Source: a virus. Taken from it: a DNA stretch of 51,258 nt. Under the pieces are notes generated by a model that was not told the origin of the DNA, made no database searches, and saw only the letters and a list, made by a program, of their open reading frames with translations. Made by a program: the position numbers and the translations under genes. The stretch's first letter is position 1. Every line of letters starts with the position of its first letter. Positions 537 through 41,958 of the stretch are shown here, one piece after another. The stretch lies in the IMG/VR virus record IMGVR_UViG_3300031281_000004, positions 1 through 51,258 of that record. One strand, given 5' to 3'.

Positions 537-695
537 CTATATATCCCTCCATGGTTTTTTGATACCTAATATAAATCGAACTATTCTATCTATAATAGAC
601 ATTATCATTTTATATTTCTTCGAGTGTCTCATCATTCTTTTGTATTTTTTTTTAAGACGGATTTTATCTTCATCAGTCAATTTTAATTGTTTCAT
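537..695 (-). CDS. Small basic hypothetical protein (52 aa)
   Basis: A 52-residue frame beginning MKQLKLTDEDK and ending KKPWRDI. It overlaps the 3' end of thyX by 23 bases and stops two bases before the next gene's GTG start. It fills what would otherwise be a gap in a tightly packed operon, and its 3' end carries the ribosome site for the downstream gene. The protein is basic with a short hydrophobic stretch near residues 31-43. No family recognised. Confidence 0.55.
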   Translation of the reverse strand: MKQLKLTDEDKIRLKKKYKRMMRHSKKYKMIMSIIDRIVRFILGIKKPWRDI

Positions 696-1341
696 ATATT
701 TCTGGTAATTCCTCCTGAAAATAATTTAACAGAGGTATCATTATTTCTCTTATTTGAGGATGAGCTTCTTTAGAAGTCCTTAATGTTAATATGTGTTTCC
801 ATTCACGAAGATTTGCTGTTGTTATTATTTCTGTTTTTAAAGAATTGGGTAAAACAGATCTTGCTTTTTGTGGAGCCCAGTTTCTTCTTATCAATTCTTG
901 ATATGTTCTTTCACAAGCCAACATATGTTGCATCCACATTCTTTCATCTATACTAACATCAGAAAAAGAATATGTTTCCATAATATCTTCTTCAGTATAA
1001 CTTCCTTCATTAACATCCATCCATGGTGGAATTATAAAAGTAACACCTCCTTCACAATTACAGTAACGAGTACTTTCTTGAGCATATGACGCTAATCTGT
1101 GTCTTACGAGTTCGTGAGTAACACCACGGTCACATACAAACTTGATAGTGATAGTATAATGTTCTATCATAGCTTCGTGACCTCTTTTAACAAGCATTTT
1201 AACAAACTTAGAAGCAGAATCTCCTATAATTTTATCTTCTGATTTATAACAAGTTCTTCCTGCTATTTCTATTTTTTTACAGATTTCTTTTCCATCAATA
1301 TTATGGCCCATTGTAGAAAAAAAAGGTCTTATAAGTATCAT
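673..1341 (-). CDS. thyX: Flavin-dependent thymidylate synthase
   Basis: This is a 222-residue ThyX, which methylates dUMP to dTMP using methylenetetrahydrofolate, FAD and NADPH. The sequence shows GHEAMIEH at residues 54-61 and the family signature RHRLASYAQESTRY at 80-93, which fits RHRxxSxxxxSxR. The conserved C-terminal helix region (ARSVLPNSLKTEI, then an arginine-rich LRTS segment) is also present, and the length is normal for the family. An AAGGAG ribosome site precedes the ATG. A second, divergent ThyX-like gene lies at 14525-15493, so the phage keeps one canonical copy and one altered copy. Confidence 0.95.
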   Translation of the reverse strand: MILIRPFFSTMGHNIDGKEICKKIEIAGRTCYKSEDKIIGDSASKFVKMLVKRGHEAMIEHYTITIKFVCDRGVTHELVRHRLASYAQESTRYCNCEGGVTFIIPPWMDVNEGSYTEEDIMETYSFSDVSIDERMWMQHMLACERTYQELIRRNWAPQKARSVLPNSLKTEIITTANLREWKHILTLRTSKEAHPQIREIMIPLLNYFQEELPEIYETIKID

Positions 1342-14524: not shown

Positions 14525-15493
14525 TTATAAGCTGGAAAATAATTCCTTATCAGCTACTCCGAGTTTTTCAAAATCTTCCCTTCCAAAGTTAACATAATCC
14601 TCCGGCGAAGCTACTTCTATTCCAGCTTTTTTAAGACCATTTTTATCAGTACAACTTTTGTTGAACTCGTTATATTCACAATCAGATGGCCACCGTCCAC
14701 ATCCTTTGAACAAATTACTAAACAACTCGCTACCATCTGACTTTGAATATAAACATCTTTTGGCATAGTCACAGGCAGGTCTCATAATATCTGCCAAAAG
14801 ATGATAACCCATATTTTTAAATGTTTCCCTTATCTTCCAGTGTATGCCACATATGAACTCTTCTTCTCCAAAACACATTCTTCTCCTTGATTGTCCAATT
14901 AAAGCCGCAAGAGACTGTGTAAACACAAACGGATGATGATAACACATGGGTAGAATAGATCTTGCTACTTGATAAGATTCTTTTCCTTCTTTTATTATAT
15001 TCTTATAAGTTTTTTTAATAGAACTTAAAATCTCATCAACCATCAATATGGTTCCATCATCCATATTTTTATATTCGGAATACAATATAAAAGAAGAATC
15101 AAGCTTACTATTATCTCTGCATCCTATACTCCCAAAACCACTTCCAATTCTGGTCCTTGCCATTTGATCAAAACAGTGCCTTGGTGTTCCTCTAACTATA
15201 AATGTAAACTTAGGTGCTTCAAGTGCTGTTGGAAGTGTTTTTCCTTTTAACGCAGACATAACAACAAGATACCTCAAATCTGGAGATAATTGTTTCCATT
15301 TATTATAATAATTATCATCTCCCCATGTAGCTGTTGCCATGTGAAAGATTGATTTCCACATGTTTTCCGGTTTATCAACAAGTTCAATATCCAACAATTC
15401 ACATCCAAAAAATATTTCAGATTTTATATCCATATTTCTATTTGGAAGCGTTCCACAAACTTCTCTCAATTTATCTATTTCGTTCTTTTTCAA
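14525..15493 (-). CDS. Divergent ThyX-superfamily protein
   Basis: A 322-residue relative of flavin-dependent thymidylate synthase. The ThyX signature region is recognisable but altered: RGTPRHCFDQMARTRIG at 101-117 gives R-T-R (113-115) where ThyX has R-H-R, with S122 and R126 further along. The second conserved block, ARSILPM at 178-184 followed by SLAALIGQSRRR, is also present. It is about 100 residues longer than the canonical ThyX at 673-1341. It may make a hydroxymethyl or other C5-modified pyrimidine, which is inference. TTG start after AGGAGGG, behind a phage-type promoter. Confidence 0.75.
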   Translation of the reverse strand: MKKNEIDKLREVCGTLPNRNMDIKSEIFFGCELLDIELVDKPENMWKSIFHMATATWGDDNYYNKWKQLSPDLRYLVVMSALKGKTLPTALEAPKFTFIVRGTPRHCFDQMARTRIGSGFGSIGCRDNSKLDSSFILYSEYKNMDDGTILMVDEILSSIKKTYKNIIKEGKESYQVARSILPMCYHHPFVFTQSLAALIGQSRRRMCFGEEEFICGIHWKIRETFKNMGYHLLADIMRPACDYAKRCLYSKSDGSELFSNLFKGCGRWPSDCEYNEFNKSCTDKNGLKKAGIEVASPEDYVNFGREDFEKLGVADKELFSSL

Positions 15494-15525
15494 TATTCCC
15501 TCCTATCGATATTTCATTCTCTTTC

Positions 15526-15560
15526 TATATAATAGACAAAAGAACAATATTTCTCTACAA
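15526..15560 (-). promoter_or_regulatory. Phage-type promoter upstream of the ThyX-like gene
   Basis: On the minus strand: TTGTAG, 17 bases, GTCTATTATATA, some 33 bases before the TTG start at 15493. It lies between the DnaE stop and the ThyX-like gene and gives that gene its own start. Confidence 0.7.
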
Positions 15561-15575
15561 AATATTAGAAAAAAA

Positions 15576-18500
15576 TTATAGAAATCCTTTTTCTTTCATA
15601 TATACATCTATTTTTTGCAAAGGATTATATTTACATGTTCTATAACTATTACTACCCCAACCTAATGTTAACAATTCTCTTGTTTTAACATCTTTTCTCT
15701 TATCTTTTCTACAATATGCTATATAATAAACATCTTTTTTCAATCTGTTTTTCACAACTCTATAAACATCACCAAATACAGCACAACTACCTCTGTTCCC
15801 TTTAAAATCGACAATACTTAAATAAACATAAGGCTTTTTATTTCTATCTTTTCTTTCTTGAGATTTATCCTCTATTTTAAAACAATATTCTCCACTGTCT
15901 GAAGCTGTTATTTCTCTTATTCCGTGATTTTTATGCAACCATTCAGCTCTAGAAGAATTAAGATCTTCATCTCTGTGAAAAACATTAAATTTGCATATTT
16001 CCTTTTCCATTTCTTCTTTTTCTTCTTCTGTAAAATCACCTTGACCCCTTATAGGAAGAAAATCATTATATTCATATTCTCCATTCCATATTTCTAACAT
16101 GGTTTTTTTAATTTCCTTTAAGCTTTTCTTTTTATATTTTGCTCTTATTAAACTCCATTTTTCATAGAAAAGGACTAAAGCTTTTCTATCTTTATTAAGA
16201 GAATCAAAAGCGCCTATTTTTATTAAGTTTAATATAGCTGTTTTATTAGTTCTTAACTTTAGTTCTTTCATGCAAAATTGTGAAAAAGATCTATAGGGAG
16301 CTCCTTTATATATTTCGCCTGCTAATGATTTGCCTATTCCCGGGACAAACGAAAACGGTATCCTTATTTTACCTTCATCTGGATAGAATCTTAATTTAGA
16401 TTTATTTATATCAATAGGAGCGAATCGTAATTTTCTTGAATCTGTTATAAATCTAAAATATTTTTCCATTTTGTTTGTTTTTCTGAAATTACTTTCTTTT
16501 CCGTTTTTTGTTCTATCTAAAATAGCAGAATAAAAACACAAAGGATAATATTCTCTCATATATAATGTTTGCATAGCTATAAAAGCATAAGAAACACTAT
16601 GACTTCTATTAAAGGCATATTCAGCAAACTCAGCTAATTTATCAACCCACTTATCTATTTGTTTATCAGATAGATTTGTTGTCTTTTTAGCTCCTTCTCT
16701 AAACTTATTTACTACTGCTAATAGTTCAGGATCTTCTTTTTTATCATCTGTTTTTTGTCTTCTTAAATATAATATCTTAAATGTTTTTCTTGCTCTATCA
16801 GCTTCTTCTAGTGTAAACAATCCAATTTTATGTAATATGTTCATAAATTGTTCTTGAAAGGCAATTGTACCATATGTATTTCTTAATAACTTTCCTATTT
16901 CTGTTTTTCCTTCATATTTTTTATTATTTTCTTTTTCCCAATTCTTAACTTTAATTTTTCTTTTTATATAATGTTCATGTTCTAGAGCATTTATAACAGC
17001 CGGTCTATAAAGAGCATTAACTGTTGCCATATCTTCAAAACAATCTGGTTTTGTTCTCTTAAGAAAATCATTTATAGAAGTATTCTCAAATTGAAATATT
17101 CCTATACAGTCATAATTTCTTATCGCTTTGAATAATTCTTTATCATTAAGATTAAAATTATAAATATCGACATCTTCGTTTCTTGTTTTTTTAGCTAATT
17201 CAATAGATCTTTTTATTATGTCTATTTGATCTAATCCTAATAAATCAACCTTTAATACACCAAGATCTGATAATTCTCTATAATCTTTTCCCTCTATGAA
17301 TGCTGTTACAATATCACCTTTTACTTTATGAACTGGTATATGTTTATATAAAGGACCTGGAGTTATAGCTGTTCCTCCAGCGTGTCTTCCTACATTTCTA
17401 ATTCGTCCTATTAACTTTTTCGCCAAATCGAATATTTTTTTATTTTTCTTTACATAATTTATTTCTTTAAGATCAACTAAATTATTTAATTGATCAGATA
17501 AAGGAAACAAATCAGATGATTTACCAGGATTATCTATTATTTTTTTTATTATTGAAAGGAACTCGGGGTCTTTATCCTTTTCATATGCTCTAAAAACATC
17601 CCACAAAGCACCTTTAACTCTGAAAGTAGTAAAAGTTATGATATGTGCAACTCTATCGTGCCCGTACTTATCTTTAAGATAATCTTCTATTTCTTTTTTT
17701 CTATCGCTCTCAAAATCTATATCTATATCTGGAGGATCTTTTCTACTTTTATTTAAAAATCTCTCGAATATCAGATCAAATCTTATAGGATCGACTAATG
17801 TTATACCTAATAAATAAGAAACTAAAGATCCAGCAGCACTACCTCTTCCAACTCCATGATCTATTCCTTTTTTTTCACAAAATCTTATAAGATCTTCTAT
17901 TATTAAAAAATAATCAGAAAAGTTCTTTTCCTTTATAACTTTCAATTCTAATTCCATTCTGTCTTTATATTCAGTATCTTTATTTAATTTCAAAAGAGCT
18001 TTTCTACATTTTTTATCTAATATGAAATCAGCATTCACTTCATTTTTATCATCATCTATAAATCTTGGAAACTTAGGATTTTCAGAATGTTCTAAATGAA
18101 AGTCACATTTTTCAGCTACTTCAGCGGTATTATAAATGCCTTCCATTATTACACTTTTAGATAAATTATATCCATATTCTTTGTTAAATCTCAAATAATC
18201 CTTAGGATGATGAAAAAAGAGATTTCTCGTTGAAAATCTGAAAACATTAGGATCTGAAATACTTTTCTTTCTTTCTATAGCAATCATTAAATCTTGTATT
18301 TTTTCATCTCCCTCATTTACATAATGACAATCTCCGGTGATAATATATTTTACATTCATTCTTTTAGACATCTTTAAAAGCTGTATATTTACTCTTTTCT
18401 GATCTTCAAGTTCGTTAAACATTATTTCTACATATAAATCATCACCGAAAACTTTTTTATATTTTAATAACTTTTTCTCAGCAAGATCAATTCTATCTTT

Positions 18501-18938
18501 TAATATATAATAACTTAAATAAGAACCAAGACAAGCAGTCATACATATAATATCTCTAGAATGAGAAAAAATAAACTTTTCATCTGTTCTCCCTTTATAA
18601 TAAAAACCGTTAACAATAGAATCATAATTTATCTTAAGTAAGTTTTCATAACCTTTTCTTGACTTAGCCAATAGAACTATGTGTCTGTTTGTGCCTTTTT
18701 CTTTTCCCTTTTCATTGTCGCGATTAGAATTGAGATAAAACTCACAACCTAATATAGGTTTAATTCCTTCTTTTACACAAGCATTACTAAATCTAAGCAA
18801 ACCAGACATAGTTCCATGATCTGTTAAAGCAACAGCCGACATTCCATACTCTTTTGCCTTTTTAGCAATTTCCTCTGGAGATGCAACACCATCCAAAATT
18901 GAGAAAAAACTATGATTGTGTAACTGAACAAACTTCAT
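15576..18938 (-). CDS. dnaE: DNA polymerase III alpha subunit (DnaE-type replicase)
   Basis: A 1120-residue C-family DNA polymerase. The N-terminal PHP domain shows HNHS (7-10), TDHG (39-42), E66 and DCH (203-205). The palm has GVGRGSAAGS at 362-371, the catalytic pair in PDIDID (D404/D406/D408) and a third Asp near D565 in VLKVDLLGLD. RHAGG lies at 518-522. A helix-hairpin-helix-like segment and an OB fold (VYLSIVDFKG) complete the C-terminus. The phage therefore brings a bacterial-type replicase rather than a family A or B polymerase. Its putative promoter lies upstream of the 54-residue gene. Confidence 0.96.
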   Translation of the reverse strand: MKFVQLHNHSFFSILDGVASPEEIAKKAKEYGMSAVALTDHGTMSGLLRFSNACVKEGIKPILGCEFYLNSNRDNEKGKEKGTNRHIVLLAKSRKGYENLLKINYDSIVNGFYYKGRTDEKFIFSHSRDIICMTACLGSYLSYYILKDRIDLAEKKLLKYKKVFGDDLYVEIMFNELEDQKRVNIQLLKMSKRMNVKYIITGDCHYVNEGDEKIQDLMIAIERKKSISDPNVFRFSTRNLFFHHPKDYLRFNKEYGYNLSKSVIMEGIYNTAEVAEKCDFHLEHSENPKFPRFIDDDKNEVNADFILDKKCRKALLKLNKDTEYKDRMELELKVIKEKNFSDYFLIIEDLIRFCEKKGIDHGVGRGSAAGSLVSYLLGITLVDPIRFDLIFERFLNKSRKDPPDIDIDFESDRKKEIEDYLKDKYGHDRVAHIITFTTFRVKGALWDVFRAYEKDKDPEFLSIIKKIIDNPGKSSDLFPLSDQLNNLVDLKEINYVKKNKKIFDLAKKLIGRIRNVGRHAGGTAITPGPLYKHIPVHKVKGDIVTAFIEGKDYRELSDLGVLKVDLLGLDQIDIIKRSIELAKKTRNEDVDIYNFNLNDKELFKAIRNYDCIGIFQFENTSINDFLKRTKPDCFEDMATVNALYRPAVINALEHEHYIKRKIKVKNWEKENNKKYEGKTEIGKLLRNTYGTIAFQEQFMNILHKIGLFTLEEADRARKTFKILYLRRQKTDDKKEDPELLAVVNKFREGAKKTTNLSDKQIDKWVDKLAEFAEYAFNRSHSVSYAFIAMQTLYMREYYPLCFYSAILDRTKNGKESNFRKTNKMEKYFRFITDSRKLRFAPIDINKSKLRFYPDEGKIRIPFSFVPGIGKSLAGEIYKGAPYRSFSQFCMKELKLRTNKTAILNLIKIGAFDSLNKDRKALVLFYEKWSLIRAKYKKKSLKEIKKTMLEIWNGEYEYNDFLPIRGQGDFTEEEKEEMEKEICKFNVFHRDEDLNSSRAEWLHKNHGIREITASDSGEYCFKIEDKSQERKDRNKKPYVYLSIVDFKGNRGSCAVFGDVYRVVKNRLKKDVYYIAYCRKDKRKDVKTRELLTLGWGSNSYRTCKYNPLQKIDVYMKEKGFL

Positions 18939-18992
18939 GTTTCTATTATCTTTTACCCTGCTTAATAATGGACATATTTTTAATTTCTTCCA

Positions 18993-19157
18993 TTATTTCT
19001 TTTTTCCTAAATAAATATAATTAGTTTTCCAACCCGTCAAAGGAACAATCCATTTCAAAATTCTCCATCTAATTATTTTACTTGTTTCAATATCAACTTC
19101 TTTTCCTAATCTAATAAAAAACCATTGTAAAATAAAATAATTTAAAAATCCTAACAT
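18993..19157 (-). CDS. Small aromatic-rich protein (54 aa)
   Basis: A 54-residue frame starting MLGFLNYFIL and ending YLGKKK. It begins at the ATG at 19157, nine bases after AAGGG, and lies between the dUTPase and polymerase genes where no longer frame exists. It is basic and rich in Trp, Ile and Leu, perhaps membrane-associated. A phage-type promoter stands immediately upstream, which supports it as a real gene leading into dnaE. Confidence 0.55.
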   Translation of the reverse strand: MLGFLNYFILQWFFIRLGKEVDIETSKIIRWRILKWIVPLTGWKTNYIYLGKKK

Positions 19158-19169
19158 ATTAAAGCCCTT

Positions 19170-19204
19170 TCATAAATAGACCTTTTAATTACTAATATCC
19201 ACGA
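19170..19204 (-). promoter_or_regulatory. Phage-type promoter upstream of the 54-aa gene and dnaE
   Basis: On the minus strand: TCGTGG, exactly 17 bases, then GTCTATTTATGA. The -10-like part is less perfect than at other sites, but element spacing is identical. It overlaps the last codons of the dUTPase gene. Confidence 0.5.
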
Positions 19205-19608
19205 TCTTGTCTGTTGTGATTTTCTTTATTTTTTTCCATATATTTTTCAAATATTTCCTCTGGAGAAAAATTAAGTATTAAAGCTATATTTAAGAAAAAA
19301 TGCAAAGCGTCAATATATTCTTCCATAACTTTTTCTCTTTGTTCTTCATTTTTCCATGTTTTTAATTCTTTATTGTTGTATTTTCTCCAGTGTTTAAAAG
19401 GAAGATTGTCTATCATTTCTCCTAATTCTCTACTAATGTGAAAAGTCTCTTCTATTATCATAAAAGACTTGCCTTGCATATTAGTATTTCTTGCTTTTGC
19501 CAATCTTCCTAATCTTTCCTGTAAAATTGCTTGTTTTTCATATATTAGTCGTAGACAATCGTCTTCTGTTATTCTCAAACAACTTTTATTTTTTATCTTT
19601 TCTGACAT
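19192..19608 (-). CDS. Dimeric all-alpha dUTPase
   Basis: A 138-residue protein of the MazG-like all-alpha NTP pyrophosphatase superfamily, dimeric dUTPase branch. Visible are the first acidic helix FMIIEETFHISRELGEM (49-65), NLPFKHW (68-74) and the second metal helix EEYIDALHFFLN (96-107). It hydrolyses dUTP to dUMP, supplying the thymidylate-type synthases and keeping uracil out of DNA. It overlaps the thymidylate kinase gene by 23 bases. Confidence 0.85.
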   Translation of the reverse strand: MSEKIKNKSCLRITEDDCLRLIYEKQAILQERLGRLAKARNTNMQGKSFMIIEETFHISRELGEMIDNLPFKHWRKYNNKELKTWKNEEQREKVMEEYIDALHFFLNIALILNFSPEEIFEKYMEKNKENHNRQDRGY

Positions 19609-20059
19609 CTTTTTCTCCTGTAAGTTTTAATATTTCTTCTAGTGTTTCTTTTATTGTAAAGATACTTGTATCTATTCTTATTGTATGTTTAAACTTAGAC
19701 TGAAGAAAATAAACATTAAAAATATTTTGAAGATATTCTATTCCTTCTTTTGTTCTTGTTGAATATGATATGTCTTCTCCTGCATTCGACATTCTTTCTC
19801 TCAATACAGTATAGTCAGAACAAAAGAGATAAATCAAATAACAATCAAATGTTTTCATTAAATCTTTTTCTAATTGACTATAATTCTTAATGTAGTGTTT
19901 TCTTGAAAAAAACATATCATAAGAAAAATTACTTCCAATAAATCTGTCAATTATCAAAGGACCATAATTCGTAGCTTTTCTATAGAGTTGATATATAGTT
20001 GTCTTACCAACTTTATCGGGTCCTTCAAGAATTATAAGCTTAGGTTTATCCTTCATCAT
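19586..20059 (-). CDS. Thymidylate kinase-like dNMP kinase
   Basis: A 157-residue P-loop kinase. LIILEGPDKVGKTT (8-21) is the thymidylate kinase Walker A, DRF at 38-40 is the substrate-site Asp-Arg, and RERMSNAGE resembles the lid. It is shorter than cellular Tmk (about 210 residues), as is common for phage dNMP kinases. It would phosphorylate dTMP or a modified pyrimidine monophosphate made by the neighbouring enzymes. Starts and stops overlap on both sides. Confidence 0.8.
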   Translation of the reverse strand: MMKDKPKLIILEGPDKVGKTTIYQLYRKATNYGPLIIDRFIGSNFSYDMFFSRKHYIKNYSQLEKDLMKTFDCYLIYLFCSDYTVLRERMSNAGEDISYSTRTKEGIEYLQNIFNVYFLQSKFKHTIRIDTSIFTIKETLEEILKLTGEKDVRKDKK

Positions 20060-20711
20060 TTTCTCCTTTTAGAACATTAAGAACATCACAGAGGTCATTA
20101 ACTCTTATAACATTCTTAATTGTTTCACCTTGATTATATTTATTATCAACAAGAAAAACTCTATATCCCCATTTTCCAACTATATTCGCAATTTCCCTAT
20201 TGTCTTCAATCATAAATATCATATTTGGAAACTTTTCTAATATTCTTATATGCTTCATTTTATCAAATATTACTTCACTGAAAAAAGGTAAATGAGCCAT
20301 AAGGATATCATACGTGTCATTTCCACTTATACTTTGATCTCTTGCTGTTAATATAACATTTTTATATCCATTAAAATCAAGCCATTTAAGAAGGGAATAA
20401 GCACAAGGTCTCAGTTGTAAGTGTTTTTTAACTCCGGATAATCTATATTGAGCTTTAAACAATCTATAGTAATAATAAGGAATATTTTTCTTAAGATCAT
20501 AAAGATCATTATATTCTTTAATCCAAGAATATTTCTTTTTTGATATTTCAGATAAATTATAAATACACTGATTTGCATAATTTATCCAGGCTGGAATTGA
20601 ATCCAATAAAACATCATCCAAATCAATACCACAAACTTTCTTTCCCTTGTTTATTTCTAAATGAGATGGAGAAAATATTTGGTTATCATCTATTAAAGAT
20701 TTTTCTATCAT
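20046..20711 (-). CDS. HAD-family 5'(3')-deoxyribonucleotidase-like phosphatase
   Basis: A 221-residue HAD hydrolase. Motif I GIDLDDVLLDS places D30 and D32, motif II is ILTARD at 120-125 (T122), and motif IV FMIEDN ends at D170-N171. The cap insertion is long and aromatic-rich. The form resembles the NT5C deoxyribonucleotidases found in phage nucleotide clusters, which dephosphorylate dNMPs. Here it could remove unwanted canonical nucleotides. It overlaps the thymidylate kinase gene by 14 bases. Confidence 0.75.
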   Translation of the reverse strand: MIEKSLIDDNQIFSPSHLEINKGKKVCGIDLDDVLLDSIPAWINYANQCIYNLSEISKKKYSWIKEYNDLYDLKKNIPYYYYRLFKAQYRLSGVKKHLQLRPCAYSLLKWLDFNGYKNVILTARDQSISGNDTYDILMAHLPFFSEVIFDKMKHIRILEKFPNMIFMIEDNREIANIVGKWGYRVFLVDNKYNQGETIKNVIRVNDLCDVLNVLKGENDEG

Positions 20712-21265
20712 ATTTTAGCTCTCTTTCTATTTCTTCGTCTTCTTCTAGGATCTCCGTCAGACATATAAACATGAGCAGATCCTATCATAACAGATATATT
20801 AACTTTTATTCTCTTGTTTTTATAAATAGAATATTTTAATTCTTTTATTATTTCTATTACACCAGCAATATCAGCAATAAGCAACTTTTCGACATCGCTT
20901 GATCTAATAGAAATAATAACAGCCATTTCTTTATCTCTTGGCAATAATTGAACTGTTGATATACAATCCTCTGAATGAACTATTATCTTTCTGGATCCTA
21001 TAGGTTCTTCGTTAAAATAAAACTTATTATATTCAATTTTTTGCAAAAGCCCATACTTAAGAAAACTATAATGATGTCTTTCTTGATTCATTTTATTTAT
21101 AAACTTAGATTTATAAAGTGCTTTTGCAGAAGGATAAAGACTTTTTAAATCAACATCTCTGAAAATAAGATTCACACCTACTAATTCTTTTGTATTTCCA
21201 GAAGTAAATCCAATTTCCTTAACTTCAGAAATTAAGTCTCTTATTTCAGATAATATCTTATCCAT
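20708..21265 (-). CDS. ThyA-superfamily protein B (hydroxymethylase-like)
   Basis: A 185-residue shortened relative of thymidylate synthase. KELVGVNL (26-33) matches the family ELxGV motif. C101 lies 20 residues before R121-S122 (RSSDV), exactly as in the sister protein at 22151-22783, and would be the nucleophile. H165 and Y167 (GSAHVY) match the nucleotide-binding His-x-Tyr. The residue aligned with ThyA Asn177 appears to be D132. An Arg-rich tail ends the protein. ATG at 21265 chosen because AAGGAGAA precedes it; the longer TTG start would bury that site. Confidence 0.65.
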   Translation of the reverse strand: MDKILSEIRDLISEVKEIGFTSGNTKELVGVNLIFRDVDLKSLYPSAKALYKSKFINKMNQERHHYSFLKYGLLQKIEYNKFYFNEEPIGSRKIIVHSEDCISTVQLLPRDKEMAVIISIRSSDVEKLLIADIAGVIEIIKELKYSIYKNKRIKVNISVMIGSAHVYMSDGDPRRRRRNRKRAKI

Positions 21266-22154
21266 AGTAACTATTCTCCTTTTTTTCAAAATACTCTATA
21301 ATATCGTGAGTTCTTAAATCATTATCCCAATTTGCATATCTACCTACATGTTTGATATATGGATTGATGACAAGTGGAATATCACCATTTATTTTAGCGT
21401 TATTAACGAAAGATTTAAGTATAACATTACAATCAACATAATCATCAACATTTATAGAAGTTAATGATTCCACACAAAATCTAGAATCATTAACTCTTGT
21501 TATTCTATAAAAAGGAATATTTTTTTCCGGAAAATAAACAAAGTCATAATCCTTCATAAATCCATCAAAGTTGCTACTTTCAACTAAATAATGATAAATA
21601 TTTACACCTTTATAAGAAAAATTAGGAATAAGAAATTGATTAAATATCGGAGCTGGAATAGTATTTATCAGCTTATAGTATATAAGCTGATAAATATCCA
21701 TTGTATTTTCTTTGCCTAAAAAATAACCTCTTATAGATTTTTTATATAAATCTATAGTTCTTATTGCGAAATATTCATAATTCTGTTTTAAAAGAACACT
21801 TAACCGAGACCAAACACTTATCATATTGTATCCTTCGATGATGTTATCTCCGTTATTCATACCTGATTTAATATATTTCCACCACTCATCACCCCTTGTT
21901 TTTTTTAGATAAGAAATACGAGTTTCTTGATCTATAATACTTTGTGTGTTCTTATTAAAAAAATATCCAACTTTATATATCTTGGGAGAAATATCACACA
22001 TTATTTTTTCTATAAACAAATCGACAAAATCTGTTCTTTTTATTATTCTAGGACCAAAAAAAACTTGTCCATTATCTTTTGTTAATATTTTATAACCTTT
22101 ATTGTAAAAAGCTGATATCAAACCAACAATTCCTCCACCCAAAACATAATTCAT
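21258..22154 (-). CDS. FAD-dependent oxidoreductase-like protein
   Basis: A 298-residue protein opening with a dinucleotide-binding loop (LGGGIVGL, 5-12). It ends with HVGRYANWDNDLRTHDI, which resembles the C-terminal FAD-contacting segment of amine oxidase, UDP-galactopyranose mutase or protoporphyrinogen oxidase-type flavoproteins. The middle is divergent. It lies between two ThyA-superfamily genes with four- to eight-base overlaps, so it very likely works with them, perhaps oxidising or tailoring a modified pyrimidine. Substrate unknown. Confidence 0.65.
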   Translation of the reverse strand: MNYVLGGGIVGLISAFYNKGYKILTKDNGQVFFGPRIIKRTDFVDLFIEKIMCDISPKIYKVGYFFNKNTQSIIDQETRISYLKKTRGDEWWKYIKSGMNNGDNIIEGYNMISVWSRLSVLLKQNYEYFAIRTIDLYKKSIRGYFLGKENTMDIYQLIYYKLINTIPAPIFNQFLIPNFSYKGVNIYHYLVESSNFDGFMKDYDFVYFPEKNIPFYRITRVNDSRFCVESLTSINVDDYVDCNVILKSFVNNAKINGDIPLVINPYIKHVGRYANWDNDLRTHDIIEYFEKKENSYYG

Positions 22155-22783
22155 ATTTTATTTCTCCTTATATATATATGAAGGGATCCAACATTAAAAA
22201 TTATTCTTCCAACCAAAGCGTCAACTTTAGCTGCCATGTGATCTTGAAAGTTTCTTGATAGATAAACATCATTAGGCCACACATTCAAATCCAAACTTCT
22301 CATAAAATAAATCATATGAAGTTTATCATTTCTCAATAAAAATTGGTACCCTATAGAACAAGGTACTTCTTCTTTACCTAAAACAGGAGTATCATCACAA
22401 GGACTCCATATTCCAAGAAACGCTTGACGATTGGCCCAACTTTTATTGTCTTTTATGTTATTTATTATTATTTTTTTTTGGGGTATTATTCTGTTATTAT
22501 AAGTATAATGTTTATCTTTATCTTCATATATTATTTTTTTATCATTAACAAACTCATCACTTAATTCTGCTATATAATTTAATCTATCTTTCGGTAATGG
22601 TTCTATTTTTTTTATAAGATCAAAAACATCATCTGTATCTAATATTTCAAATCTTACACCGATAAGTTCTTTAACATAACAAATATCTTCTCTTGATCTA
22701 CACGAATTATTGTTGTATTGTTCAGCATCCATTAACATTTTTTTCAAAGATTCGTATGCTTCTATACAATTATTAAAAACCAA
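22151..22783 (-). CDS. ThyA-superfamily protein A (dNMP hydroxymethylase-like)
   Basis: A 210-residue protein with clear thymidylate-synthase landmarks: ELIGVRF (39-45), NRQAFLGIW (118-126), nucleophile C142 in VPCSIGYQF, phosphate-binding RSLD (162-165), and HIY (202-204). Where ThyA has PFN (Asn177), this protein reads PND (170-172), so Asp may stand in the base-recognition position, as in dCMP hydroxymethylases. I use the TTG at 22783, five bases after GGAGG; the GTG at 22795 overlaps that ribosome site. A terminator stem (22796-22830) lies directly upstream. Confidence 0.75.
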   Translation of the reverse strand: MVFNNCIEAYESLKKMLMDAEQYNNNSCRSREDICYVKELIGVRFEILDTDDVFDLIKKIEPLPKDRLNYIAELSDEFVNDKKIIYEDKDKHYTYNNRIIPQKKIIINNIKDNKSWANRQAFLGIWSPCDDTPVLGKEEVPCSIGYQFLLRNDKLHMIYFMRSLDLNVWPNDVYLSRNFQDHMAAKVDALVGRIIFNVGSLHIYIRRNKI

Positions 22784-22795
22784 ATAAACCTCCAC

Positions 22796-22954: not shown

Positions 22955-23434
22955 TTACAATAATTTTATAACAAGAACTCCAGCTTCTTTAAATCTATCA
23001 ATAATAAGTTTTTGTTTTTCTTGACAATAATAATCATCTCCGTAAAAAACAACTTTTATTCCAGTTTCTATAATAACACCAGCGCAATAAGCACAAGGAA
23101 ATAAAGTTACAACAATTCCTCCAAATTGCTTAATTGATGACCCTGATTTTAAGGCGTTCATTATTGCGTTTATTTCAGCATGAATAATTCTACATAAATA
23201 ACTATTTTCTCCTGGTTTTTCGTCTTTTCTCATACACACATCACATGGTTCAATATTACCTGGACAAACATTATAACCATCTTTATAGTTCATCAAATAA
23301 TCACCATCAACAAGAATTGCTGCTCCTACTTTTCTTTTAATGCAATTAGAATACATTTTAGCATTACTTTTTAAAATTAAACAGATATCTTTTATTGTTT
23401 TAATATTTTCTTCAGGAATATCATGCAAATCCAT
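22955..23434 (-). CDS. Deoxycytidylate deaminase
   Basis: A 159-residue zinc deaminase converting dCMP to dUMP. Catalytic zinc residues are H85-A-E87 (HAEINAIM) and C114/C117 in FPCAYCAG. A second Cys-rich insert (CPGN, CDVCMRKDE) at 57-70 is typical of phage dCMP deaminases, which often bind an extra zinc. It provides dUMP for the thymidylate-type enzymes encoded downstream. The 5' end overlaps the small sigma factor gene by 14 bases. A gene-free 159-base stretch with small RNA 1 follows it. Confidence 0.9.
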   Translation of the reverse strand: MDLHDIPEENIKTIKDICLILKSNAKMYSNCIKRKVGAAILVDGDYLMNYKDGYNVCPGNIEPCDVCMRKDEKPGENSYLCRIIHAEINAIMNALKSGSSIKQFGGIVVTLFPCAYCAGVIIETGIKVVFYGDDYYCQEKQKLIIDRFKEAGVLVIKLL

Positions 23435-24004: not shown

Positions 24005-24202
24005 TCAGAACTCACTCAAAGAATGTTTTATTCTGACTTCCATATACATTATACCACCATCTTTTAAATATACAGTATAAATATCACAATCATCCATGCA
24101 ACCAACTTTAACAATATTTATAACTTTTTTATTATTAAATAATTCTCTTTCAAAAAGATTAAGTTTTTTTTTATCTTTTTTATCTGTTCTCTTAGAACTC
24201 AT
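24005..24202 (-). CDS. Small hypothetical protein downstream of tubulin-like gene
   Basis: A 65-residue protein with a Lys-rich N-terminus and a beta-rich second half (DIYTVYLKDGGIMYMEVRI). It overlaps the end of the tubulin-like gene by 11 bases and so is probably made with it. Phage tubulins often have a small DNA-binding or accessory partner nearby, but no helix-turn-helix is visible here, so no role is assigned. Confidence 0.55.
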   Translation of the reverse strand: MSSKRTDKKDKKKLNLFERELFNNKKVINIVKVGCMDDCDIYTVYLKDGGIMYMEVRIKHSLSEF

Positions 24203-25289
24203 TTAATTCCTCCAGATCTAAAGATTCTACTTCTCCTTTTTCGGAAAGAAGTATTTTATCTTTTATAGCTTGATTTATAAGACTTTTAAGAGATTTGCTC
24301 TTAATCAATCCACCAAGTATAATATCAACCCTTATTTTATCAACCTTCTTATTATAATAGGAAGAATTAAAAACAATCGGAGCTCTTGTCATTCTTCCCA
24401 CTATATCAAATATTCTATCTATAAAAGGAGAAATCTTTTCTCCTTTATAAGAATCAGGAATGGATATTGAACAAAGAGCTATTTTAGAAGTATTTATATC
24501 AAAACTTCCTATAAACAAACTAGAAGTTCTTACAACTTTCCTTAATTCATTATCCTCCATATCAATCCAAGAATCATCAATCTTAAAAGATCTCATATCG
24601 CAGAAACCATGAGAATATAAAAGAACTTTTTTGAGTTCGCGAAAATCTAAAGCACTATAACCTGCAGCAAAATCTAATTGTCTATATTCTTCATAAATGT
24701 CTGTTATTTTAAAAAATCTATCGAAAGCTTTAGGCAACACTTTATTTATTCCTTTGAATCTAAAATCATCTGAAAAATATTTCTTACAAGAATATTCATT
24801 ATCCACCAATAATAGATTTATTTCGTTATTTTTCAAATGATTTTCTATTACCCAATTAAGAGTTATTAAAGAATTGGGTTTTGCAGGAAGTTTTTCTCTT
24901 TTTTCTGGAAGAGTGTATATTAAAAACGTATTTTCAAACTCATTTGTCAGATATGGTAGAATAACTTTCAACAAACCACAACCAGATCCTCCTCCACCTC
25001 CAACACAAATAAGTATAACATCTCTATTGTATACTTTTTGTCTTTCCATATCCCTTTTAAAAGCGTCATAAAGATCTTTCTTGTATTTATTTGCAAGATC
25101 TTCACCTACCCCAGGATCTCTTCCTGTTCCACCATCGCTTAAAACAAACTTACCACCACCAGGTGGTTTAAACTTAGAAAAATCAACTTTACTAAAATTA
25201 AAATAAACACCAGGTATTTTAAAATATTTACTGAAAGAAGCTGCTATTCTACTTCCTCCTTGTCCTAATCCCACAACATAATCAAACAT
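24192..25289 (-). CDS. Tubulin/FtsZ-like GTPase (TubZ/PhuZ-type)
   Basis: A 365-residue protein with the order of FtsZ/tubulin nucleotide motifs: T1-like GLGQGGSRIA (7-16), T3-like GGTGRDPGVGEDL (53-65), and the G-box VGGGGGSGCGLL (96-107), equivalent to the tubulin signature GGGTGSG. A T7-like ALDFREL at 213-219 places D215 and E218, suited to GTP hydrolysis. The C-terminal 12 residues are acidic. Phage tubulins form filaments that position or segregate phage DNA. It lies beside the sigma, primase and helicase genes. Confidence 0.8.
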   Translation of the reverse strand: MFDYVVGLGQGGSRIAASFSKYFKIPGVYFNFSKVDFSKFKPPGGGKFVLSDGGTGRDPGVGEDLANKYKKDLYDAFKRDMERQKVYNRDVILICVGGGGGSGCGLLKVILPYLTNEFENTFLIYTLPEKREKLPAKPNSLITLNWVIENHLKNNEINLLLVDNEYSCKKYFSDDFRFKGINKVLPKAFDRFFKITDIYEEYRQLDFAAGYSALDFRELKKVLLYSHGFCDMRSFKIDDSWIDMEDNELRKVVRTSSLFIGSFDINTSKIALCSISIPDSYKGEKISPFIDRIFDIVGRMTRAPIVFNSSYYNKKVDKIRVDIILGGLIKSKSLKSLINQAIKDKILLSEKGEVESLDLEELNEF

Positions 25290-39255: not shown

Positions 39256-41958
39256 TTATTTAAACATAATTTCAGGATTATTCAAGCTATCTAAAGAAAG
39301 GACTTCCCAAACTTTAGTTGTACTTTCAACATTTTTATAAATGTTAATATAAGGCGAACCATGAGTTACAATAGCGAGATATCTTCCGTCTGGAGAAAAG
39401 TCACATCCGTAGCCCTTATCTGATAAAGTGCTAGCTGGATCTGATAGTTTGATAAATACTCCTCCTATTTTCTTATAAACAGTCATATAAACTCCCAAAT
39501 TATGTCCGACAGCAATATATTTTCCATCACGAGAAACAGCCAATCCTTCAGACGTACTCGGCGGCATATCCTCGGGATCTTCTATTTTAGTAAATGTATC
39601 GCCTGTTATCTCATATATTGTAAGATAATAACTACTACCTCCCGTAGCTATAATAAGATATTTTCCATCAGGTGTAAAGTTGTGTTCAAACGCTGCACTA
39701 GGAGGTAATGTTGATGGATTTGATAATTTAACAAAAGTATCACCTATTCTTCTATATATATATATATATGGGGTACCACTTGTAGCTACTGTTAGATAAG
39801 TATTATCAGGAGAAAAACGACAATAAAAGGTATATTGACCAAGAGTAAACGAATCGGATTCTGTAAAAGTACTCCCTGATATTTTATAAACTATAAAACC
39901 GGATTGATGAGTCACTGCCAAATAATTACCATCACTAGAAAAGTCACATCCATACGCAGTAATACCAGGAAGTGTTGCGGGATTGCTTAATTTTGTAAAA
40001 GTATCTCCCGATCTTTCATAGATAGTTAAATATGGAGAAGTATGATGAACAACTGCAAGATAAGTACCACAGGGAGAAAAAGCACAACCTTCAGCCTCCC
40101 CAGTTGGTAATGTCCCAGGATCAGACAGCTTAGTAAAAGTATCTCCAGATCTCTTATATATAGTTATATATGGAGATGTATCATGTACAACAGCTAAATA
40201 GACACCATCGAGAGAAAAGCAACAACCATTTCCTTCTCCTGTAGGAAGTGTTCCTGGATTTGATAATTTAACTCCTGGTTCTATTCTGTTATCTCCATTA
40301 CCTTTATACATCAATTTTATTTTACTTTTTCCAAAAAATTGTAAATATCCACTTGTCCCTTTTGTTGTAAAATATTTATTCATATAAGAAATAACATGAT
40401 CAGCATTATTTTGAATAATTCTTGAATAATCACTCGTTACTATTTCTATTGTTTCTCCTGTATTAGCAACCACAGGAAGTGTCATATTTATTACTCCGTT
40501 TGCAAAATACTTTTTGTTGGATATCATAGTAAAGCTGCTTGTCTTTTCTTCAAAGAACAATTGATCAGATAATATTTTCCATTCAGAACTAGTATCATCC
40601 CAAACAATTATAATACTATCACCAATAGAAAGAGCGCGATCTGTTGTACCATTAGAAACCAATTCTATGTTAACAAGATAAGATCCACTACCGACAGCCT
40701 GAATTATCATAATAGTTCCATCTCTGTTAGCTCCATTAAATAATCCAAGAGTTACATTACCGGATGTAGTATTAACAAATAACTTTCTATCATTTATCAA
40801 TTCATTAGCTGAAAAGTCATGACTCGCTGTTATTGTACTTACAAAATACGCAAAAGGATTATGGATAACCCATTCAGAATTAGTATTATCCCAAACAACT
40901 TTCATAACTTGTCCTGGATAAAGTACAACATCTGTTGTACCATTAGAAACCAATTCAACATCAACTTGATTAGCTGTTCCTATAACACAAACTTCTACTT
41001 TTGACCCATCTCTTGAACTACCATTAAATAGACCTAATGTTATTGATCCAGACGTAGGATTAACAAATAATCTGTGATCTTTTATTAAACTGGCTGCCGA
41101 ATAATCAGCACTTGTTGTAACAGTCAATATATTCAAACTTTTTTGGGCTAATTCTTGTAAGGCATTTTCCACTTCAGTAGATGTTATTAAAGACCCTGCA
41201 TCAGCTATAGGTAAATCTACAGCACTAACTTTTCCAGCACTTGTTCCCCAATCAATATGATTATCTTTTATAGAATCATCTTTATGATCGCCATCTTCAT
41301 CATGTGCTATACGAAAAAGAGATTTCATATATTCAATATTACCTAATTTGAATGTTATGGATGTTTCTGAAGTCCAATTTGTTGTAACTTCTCCATCGTA
41401 TCCGCCAGTTATATTATCTATATCAGCATCATACATAGCAGTAGATTCTCCTGCTGAAACCAATATCTCCGCTAATTTTATCCATCCGGATGTATGAGAA
41501 GGAGCAACACCAGATCCTGGAGTACCTTGAATCACTTGTGCTTCTATTTCATATCTAGTTTTTGTATCCCAATCCTGATATGTTATATTACCTGATGAAG
41601 GATTTCTAAATGCTCTCTGTTCTTCGTCAAAATCTGTTGTCGTTATTCTTATTTCAATTACATCTATTCTGTCAGATCCGCTTCCATTAGCAATAGATAC
41701 TGGGCCAAATATACTGCCTACATGTGCCGTCTTACCTGTGGACTGACAGAATGCTATTCCAGCTGTGATATCAACATTCATAGAAGGCGTTCCTCTTTCT
41801 TGAACAGTCAAACCATGTATGACAACATCATTAGTAGCATTAAAAACCATTTCAAATAAGGTATTTAGATTTTCTATACCTTGTTGTTCGCCATAATTAA
41901 AATCATCTTGTTTTGCTATTTCATTACTCCCAAATCTTGATATGGTTAAATCACCCAT
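39256..41958 (-). CDS. Large tail fibre/receptor-binding protein with beta-propeller
   Basis: A 900-residue protein. Residues 1-260 form an attachment and shaft region. About 275-470 contains two consecutive copies of a domain (each with LFVNxTSGxxTLGLFNG, VELVSNGTTD and VVWD motifs). From about 566 to 882 there are seven repeats of roughly 46 residues with the pattern K-L-S-x-P, G-C-x-F-S-x-D-G-x-Y-L-A-V and P-Y-x-x-I-Y, predicting a seven-bladed propeller at the tip. It probably recognises the host surface. Followed by the collar fibre gene. Confidence 0.85.
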   Translation of the reverse strand: MGDLTISRFGSNEIAKQDDFNYGEQQGIENLNTLFEMVFNATNDVVIHGLTVQERGTPSMNVDITAGIAFCQSTGKTAHVGSIFGPVSIANGSGSDRIDVIEIRITTTDFDEEQRAFRNPSSGNITYQDWDTKTRYEIEAQVIQGTPGSGVAPSHTSGWIKLAEILVSAGESTAMYDADIDNITGGYDGEVTTNWTSETSITFKLGNIEYMKSLFRIAHDEDGDHKDDSIKDNHIDWGTSAGKVSAVDLPIADAGSLITSTEVENALQELAQKSLNILTVTTSADYSAASLIKDHRLFVNPTSGSITLGLFNGSSRDGSKVEVCVIGTANQVDVELVSNGTTDVVLYPGQVMKVVWDNTNSEWVIHNPFAYFVSTITASHDFSANELINDRKLFVNTTSGNVTLGLFNGANRDGTIMIIQAVGSGSYLVNIELVSNGTTDRALSIGDSIIIVWDDTSSEWKILSDQLFFEEKTSSFTMISNKKYFANGVINMTLPVVANTGETIEIVTSDYSRIIQNNADHVISYMNKYFTTKGTSGYLQFFGKSKIKLMYKGNGDNRIEPGVKLSNPGTLPTGEGNGCCFSLDGVYLAVVHDTSPYITIYKRSGDTFTKLSDPGTLPTGEAEGCAFSPCGTYLAVVHHTSPYLTIYERSGDTFTKLSNPATLPGITAYGCDFSSDGNYLAVTHQSGFIVYKISGSTFTESDSFTLGQYTFYCRFSPDNTYLTVATSGTPYIYIYRRIGDTFVKLSNPSTLPPSAAFEHNFTPDGKYLIIATGGSSYYLTIYEITGDTFTKIEDPEDMPPSTSEGLAVSRDGKYIAVGHNLGVYMTVYKKIGGVFIKLSDPASTLSDKGYGCDFSPDGRYLAIVTHGSPYINIYKNVESTTKVWEVLSLDSLNNPEIMFK
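39313..40263 (-). repeat. Seven tandem beta-propeller-type repeats (coding)
   Basis: Seven consecutive units of about 138 bases encode the C-terminal repeats of the tail fibre. The units are clearly diverged at DNA level, so they are old duplications, though blades 1 and 2 are the most alike. Such arrays can recombine to change receptor specificity. Confidence 0.75.

Follow-up and report, generated by a model that had tools for sequence, protein, structure and literature searches.

Why would a phage encode four proteins of the thymidylate synthase superfamilies, belonging to two different folds? In textbook accounts, an organism has either ThyA or ThyX, each standing in for the other. The question is raised by a virus record in IMG/VR (IMGVR_UViG_3300031281_000004), whose 51,258 bases, here called the window, encode a DnaE-type polymerase, DnaB, a primase, a RecA-like protein and contractile-tail genes. 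A first-pass annotation had named in it a canonical ThyX, a divergent ThyX relative of 322 residues and two ThyA-superfamily proteins, here referred to as P1, P2, P3 and P4. All four open reading frames (ORFs) are present, and all lie on the minus strand, which had not been given; P3 and P4 start slightly upstream, at 21289 and 22795 rather than 21265 and 22783. Two features had been overlooked, namely a gene at 21258-22154 encoding a protein with a flavin adenine dinucleotide (FAD)-binding fold (P5), which lies between P4 and P3, and a four-cysteine (Cys4) segment in P2. Based on the linkage of these genes in distant relatives, we propose that P2, P3, P5, a HAD phosphatase, a deoxynucleoside monophosphate (dNMP) kinase and a MazG-like protein, joined here by the accessory P4, may form one pre-replicative pathway to a C5-substituted dCMP, giving a modified cytosine in virion DNA, a proposal to which we give about an even chance. 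The earlier suggestion, in which folate- and flavin-dependent enzymes in a new combination would produce a C5-modified pyrimidine, is the best explanation, with the correction that an Asp residue at position 177 favours dCMP, not dUMP, as the substrate.

Two ThyX-fold and two ThyA-fold proteins

P1 scores above both the Pfam Thy1 and the TIGR02170 cut-offs, carries an intact signature motif (RHRLASYAQESTRY) and falls in the canonical ThyX clade of the tree, and dTMP is presumably supplied by this enzyme. P2 also passes the Thy1 cut-off (24.8 bits), as do six of its relatives with 48-62 bits, and the top PDB matches found by Foldseek for its AlphaFold2 model (mean predicted local distance difference test, pLDDT, 74.6) are ThyX structures with E of about 5e-8. 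It fails the NCBI equivalog TIGR02170 for true dTMP synthases, with 27.1 bits against a cut-off of 87.9. In an alignment of ten P2 proteins, from the window and the contigs described below, with canonical ThyX, the signature RHR-X7-S is absent from P2 and RxR...G.RDN is found instead. The RHR triplet is lost in nine of the ten and kept only in contig L102; the E and S of the canonical motif are missing from the signature region, the arginine aligned with that of Ser-x-Arg is retained, and several arginines that align with conserved ones of ThyX are kept. The ten P2 proteins are monophyletic (support 100/99) and separate from canonical ThyX (96/92). Compared with the Thy1 family, which includes the UMP methylase PolB, P2 shares the fold and the kept arginines, and differs in its N-terminal extension and in a C-terminal extension that holds the Cys4 segment. 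The first three of these cysteines are invariant and the fourth is present in nine of the ten proteins; the segment is a probable metal site, for Zn or Fe-S.

Could P2 still be an ordinary dTMP synthase? The window and three other P2-bearing contigs also encode a separate canonical ThyX, and therefore P2 is dispensable for dTMP in those relatives. With the motif lost, a clade of its own and a second ThyX in the genome, we rejected this candidate.

For P3, the sequence alone stays below all curated cut-offs. The profile of its family has T4 dCMP hydroxymethylase as the top PDB match (1b49, E 3.5e-10), ahead of ThyA. Residues T33, E35, R100, C109, R118, R129, S130, D140 and H173 are invariant across eight aligned P3 proteins, and the Cys, the Arg-Ser pair and the Asp are seen in all 11 P3 proteins. 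The distance from the Cys to the Arg-Ser pair is 20 residues, the same as in thymidylate synthase, and D140 aligns with Asn177 of the Escherichia coli enzyme. On the active-site pattern and the profile match, an unrelated fold was rejected for P3. P4 scores 31.4 bits with Pfam Thymidylat_synt (cut-off 24.3) and retains C146, R166, S167, D177 and H207. It departs from true thymidylate synthases in having Asp rather than Asn177 and in reaching 57 bits with TIGR03283, where the cut-off is 174.6. The divergent proteins thus fall in the ThyX and ThyA superfamilies, as had been annotated, and not in unrelated folds.

Position 177 is occupied by Asp in every P3 (11) and in every P4 examined, and by Asn in gp67 of phage Triscuit, a canonical phage ThyA encoded beside genes of this type. 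According to a published study (PMC8670742), the substitution N177D changes the substrate of ThyA from dUMP to dCMP and shows an association with modified phage contigs. Consequently, Asp177 points to dCMP rather than dUMP as the probable substrate of P3 and P4. The residue also bears on the idea that the product is a uracil- or thymine-type base, that is, a hypermodification derived from hydroxymethyl-dUMP as in SPO1, M6 or PhiW-14, with a deaminase feeding dUMP. A dCMP deaminase gene is indeed adjacent in the window and in contig L014, yet it was seen in only these two of the 11 loci, and Asp, not Asn, is the rule at 177. A cited preprint on END nucleases concerns hypermodified phage genomes, and Pbunavirus phages have genes resembling P2 and P5 and, in at least one case, an END inhibitor, which would suit such a base; all in all, we consider it rather improbable.

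Table 1. Features of the window that are discussed in the text.
Feature	Position	Strand	Evidence or details
P1, canonical ThyX (flavin-dependent thymidylate synthase)	673-1341	-	Thy1 158.6 bits, TIGR02170 131 bits
P2, divergent ThyX-fold protein, 322 residues, ThyX core with C-terminal Cys4 extension	14525-15493	-	Thy1 43.1 bits
P2 C-terminal C-x5-C-x17-C-x15-C (C241, C247, C265, C281)	14651-14773	-	Ten P2 proteins aligned
P2 signature region RTRIGSGFGSIGCRDN in place of RHR-X7-S	15110-15157	-	Alignment of ten P2 proteins with canonical ThyX
DnaE-type replicative DNA polymerase	15576-18938	-	phrog_405 E 5e-269; between MazG and P2
MazG-like NTP pyrophosphohydrolase (dCTPase/dUTPase-like)	19192-19608	-	phrog_173 E 8e-18
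P-loop dNMP kinase (thymidylate-kinase/YorR-like)	19586-20059	-	Profile against PDB: SPbeta YorR E 1.2e-17, thymidylate kinases
HAD phosphatase, 5'(3')-deoxyribonucleotidase-like	20046-20711	-	Family profile, top PDB match 3bwv E 2.6e-5
P3, ThyA-fold, dCMP-hydroxymethylase-like, core member	20708-21289	-	Family profile against PDB; in 10 of 10 P2 loci and L013
P3 active-site stretch	20771-20965	-	C109 (=Cys146), R129-S130 (=R166-S167), D140 (=Asn177, here Asp), H173 (=H207)
P5, compact FAD-binding protein, UDP-galactopyranose mutase/amine-oxidase fold	21258-22154	-	GGGIVG motif; AlphaFold2 pLDDT 86.6
P4, second ThyA-fold protein, Asp at 177, accessory	22151-22795	-	PF00303 over cut-off, phrog_160 E 6e-20
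dCMP deaminase-like protein	22955-23434	-	PF00383 53 bits, phrog_174; adjacent in L014 too

A gene set shared by distant phages

Do these genes belong together? The neighbours named in the first-pass annotation, a MazG-type pyrophosphohydrolase (there called dUTPase), a dNMP kinase, a HAD nucleotidase and a dCMP deaminase, were all found (Table 1). Between 22795 and 19192, the genes for P4, P5, P3, HAD, kinase and MazG-like protein each overlap the next one, in the manner of a coupled operon, and are followed downstream on the same strand by the polymerase and then P2. No convincing match to P5 was found in Pfam, PHROG or NCBIfam. Its structural model matches UDP-galactopyranose mutase (UGM; Foldseek E 1.6e-11) and also monoamine oxidases, and its profile matches UGM in the PDB (E 4.5e-4). 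P5 thus has the UGM fold with the GxGxxG site of the FAD-binding Rossmann motif; it differs from these enzymes in its length, about 300 residues against about 470-510 in solved UGMs, and in an identity near 12%.

By megablast, no near relative of the window was found in the phage collection. Scans of viral contigs with single sequences of P2, P4, P3 and the polymerase gave no relatives, and a motif pattern likewise gave nothing; relatives were found by alignment-based scans. An aligned query of P4 and its nearest phage ThyA relatives led to 80 loci, among them L013 and L014, which carry other module genes. A two-sequence alignment of P2 led to five new viral contigs (L093, L094, L096, L097 and L098), and a seven-sequence alignment to three contigs of metagenome-assembled genomes, L101 (Omnitrophota), L102 (labelled Thermococcus) and L103 (Emcibacteraceae). 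The profiles of P2, P5 and P3 were built without L101-L103, and therefore these three contigs are independent of them. As a control set, 78 viral loci with a P4-type ThyA were used.

The contigs bearing P2 belong to very different phages and to the three metagenome-assembled genomes. In profile searches, P5, HAD and P3 were present in all ten of them, the kinase in nine and MazG in eight, while P5 and HAD occurred in none of the 78 control loci. The P2 profile gave one weak match in the controls (L058, E 1.5e-4, 19 bits), and the matches of the P3 profile there were cross-matches within the ThyA superfamily; the weakest P3 among the P2 loci is that of L102 (E 1.6e-7). A true P4 was found in three P2-bearing loci (the window, L014 and L101) and in L013, that is, in 4 of 11 contigs. 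The core of the module is made up of P3, P2, P5 and HAD, and P4 is optional. The ThyX-like gene sits within a compact operon alongside both ThyA-like genes in L014 (MazG, P4, P2, P5, HAD, kinase, P3, dCMP deaminase) and in L101 (P4, P2, P5, HAD, kinase, P3). Contig L013 (15.6 kb) has P4, P5, P3 and HAD together with a fused kinase-MazG. Other fusions join the kinase to P3 (L093 and L103) and MazG to HAD (L096, L097, L098, L102 and L103).

Such linkage has to be set against two other readings. One is that no DNA modification is involved, and that the genes only adjust the pyrimidine pools that an AT-rich phage needs for its replication; its thymidylate synthases would then be redundant and suited to different folate or redox states. 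Every part does have a nucleotide-metabolism fold, and phages often carry such genes. However, the non-canonical active sites, the fusions and the association with P5 and HAD are jointly conserved across distant phages, and we regard this reading as very unlikely. The other is a plain 5-hydroxymethylcytosine pathway as in T4, consisting of MazG, P3 and the kinase, with P2 as a divergent dTMP synthase and P5 belonging to unrelated metabolism. The three enzymes would follow the logic of T4 gp56, gp42 and gp1, and the match of P3 to gp42 fits. This reading leaves aside that none of the loci found has P2 without P5, P3 and HAD, and it conflicts with the loss of the ThyX motif in P2 and with the separate canonical ThyX that the window and three relatives also encode; we think it unlikely.

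Near P2 in several relatives there are genes for class I methyltransferases, a glycosyltransferase, an epimerase, radical SAM proteins and aldo-keto reductases, which differ between relatives and would fit a variable tailoring. In L097 (7297-9899) and L098 (7536-9620), the genes between the kinase and P2 encode a radical SAM/SPASM protein and an aldo-keto reductase whose tail is rich in Cys. In the vicinity of the module, L096 (14431-16137) and L093 (12367-12957) encode members of the uracil-DNA-glycosylase superfamily, of the Fe-S type by their Cys motifs, and the L096 copy shows an apparent intein interruption. The Thermococcus-binned contig L102 (JALTBN010000014.1) carries, besides the module, a long ORF resembling a polymerase and another resembling an integrase, and could represent an archaeal virus or a misbinning.

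A putative route to a modified cytosine

Pre-replicative modification of pyrimidines is a known kind of pathway. T4 prepares its hydroxymethyl-dCTP ahead of replication by the action of a dCTPase, a dCMP hydroxymethylase and a dNMP kinase. The window resembles this system in that the P3 profile matches gp42 best, that the order Cys...R-S...Asp177...His is kept, and that MazG and a dNMP kinase are encoded alongside. P3 is, however, smaller and very divergent, and the T4 set has no counterpart of the ThyX-like protein, the FAD protein or HAD. The T4 roles suit MazG, P3 and the kinase.

From the fold assignments, active-site residues, linkage and fusions, we infer the substrates, the order of steps, the cofactors of P2 and the product as follows. 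MazG would convert dCTP to dCMP. The Cys of P3, or of P4 where present, would attack C6 of dCMP, and a one-carbon unit from methylene-tetrahydrofolate would be placed on C5, as by T4 gp42. Hydroxymethyl-dCMP would result, or else a C5-methylene product related to it. P2, with a ThyX-like site for pyrimidine nucleotides and a metal-binding segment, and P5, with its FAD oxidase/mutase fold, would then subject the C5 substituent to a further redox step while the nucleotide is still a monophosphate. The kinase would phosphorylate the modified product toward the dNTP, while the HAD phosphatase would clear unmodified or competing monophosphates and P1 would provide a separate supply of dTMP.

Alternatively, the product may be 5-methyl-dCMP, as in phage XP12. 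Here P3 would make a C5-methylene adduct that receives its hydride from the flavin of P2 or P5 instead of tetrahydrofolate, so that dihydrofolate reductase is unneeded and a relay of two folds takes the place of a single dCMP methyltransferase. ThyX is established to use its flavin for reducing a one-carbon unit at C5, P3 has Asp177, and residue 169, which contacts folate in ThyA, is variable in P3 and P4. Nevertheless, XP12 and the N177D form of ThyA each need one protein only, and the oxidase/mutase fold of P5 and the Cys4 segment of P2 would be left unexplained, which makes 5-methyl-dCMP an improbable product.

Several points weigh against the pathway to a modified cytosine with a flavin-dependent step. 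The choice of substrate hangs on a single residue at position 177, and position 169 varies among D, N and E in P3 and P4. The position of E. coli Glu58, or T4 Glu60, is not clearly conserved in P3: the only invariant Glu in the aligned region is E35, and the alignment is poor around the position of Glu60, which serves water activation in gp42. The fourth Cys of P2 is missing in L101, and the C-terminal Cys region is a low-confidence part of the AlphaFold2 model. A glycosyltransferase or similar tailoring gene was not found among the window genes tested, although the 51 kb record may be a fragment. Finally, P5 and P2 could have different molecules as their substrates.

More tentatively, P2 might represent a new class of ThyX-fold metalloenzymes, with Fe-S or zinc, that does not synthesise dTMP. 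Together with P5 it could receive C5-activated dCMP from P3, and such a relay of two unrelated folds would lead to a previously undescribed cytosine base in phages of Omnitrophota, Proteobacteria and possibly Thermococcus. Searches of the open-licence literature found neither a ThyX-fold paralogue nor the present gene set described as part of a DNA-modification pathway. If true, the need of one conserved pathway for specialised forms of both ThyA and ThyX, and for a flavoprotein as well, would put these folds to a new use. Phage nucleotide-modification pathways define how viruses evade restriction and CRISPR, and DNA chemistry draws enzymes from them; the long-standing question of which gene sets make which modified base becomes testable.

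Related genes in cultured phages and other observations

Pbunavirus phages encode distant relatives of P2 and P5. In Pseudomonas phage 109 (L105, 1638-2639, 3848-4765 and 4961-5998), proteins annotated as 'polyamine oxidase' and ThyX resemble P5 and P2, respectively (hhalign E 2e-8 and 4e-9). The Pbunavirus ThyX-like protein has RTR for RHR and a C-terminal C-x5-C, and a HAD gene follows nearby. Another ThyX-like protein, gp84 of Gordonia phage Ranch (L104, 5764-6819), has RQR for RHR, keeps Gln-Glu-Ser and carries C-terminal Cys residues including C-x5-C; judging from these motifs, it may be an intermediate between ThyX and P2. Both differ from P2 in that the Gln-Glu-Ser/Thr part of the ThyX motif is still there, and their similarity to P2 is remote only. 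P3 was not found in the Pbunavirus or the Ranch record. At least one Pbunavirus phage encodes, according to the literature, an inhibitor of END nucleases. Since Pbunavirus phages have the P2-like ThyX and the P5-like oxidase, and at least one has this inhibitor, the cited preprint on END nucleases may already describe part of a related pathway, and the claim to novelty is limited accordingly. Pbunavirus phages are much used in therapy (PMC11990801), and as they are cultured, their virion nucleosides can be measured directly.

P4 belongs to a group of phage ThyA proteins that adjoin a phrog_13667 protein in phages Zuko, Shrew and Triscuit, with a similar case in PMBT14; kinase, MazG and deaminase neighbours and Asp177 are shared, while P2, P5 and HAD are absent from those phages. 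A phrog_13667-type protein is found in 57 of the 78 control loci and adjoins ThyA in 55. In those encoded beside a dCMP-type ThyA (L003, 2268-3299; L009, 2469-3530; L010, 2059-3087; L007, 1700-2488), the pattern Cys...Arg-Thr/Ser...Asp is in register. They are possibly a second, degenerate ThyA, even part of a two-subunit ThyA, with weak homology (hhalign 28%, E 6e-4). We rejected the view that P4 and P3 are this actinophage pair, since P3 keeps the His and matches gp42, which phrog_13667 does not clearly do.

Elsewhere in the window, an FtsZ/tubulin-like protein (24192-25289, minus strand) has a GGGGGSG motif and only 13.6 bits with NCBIfam ftsZ, and is possibly a phage tubulin. In the tail region, a protein of 900 residues (39256-41958, minus strand) contains WD40-like beta-propeller repeats and matches a depolymerase C-terminal domain.

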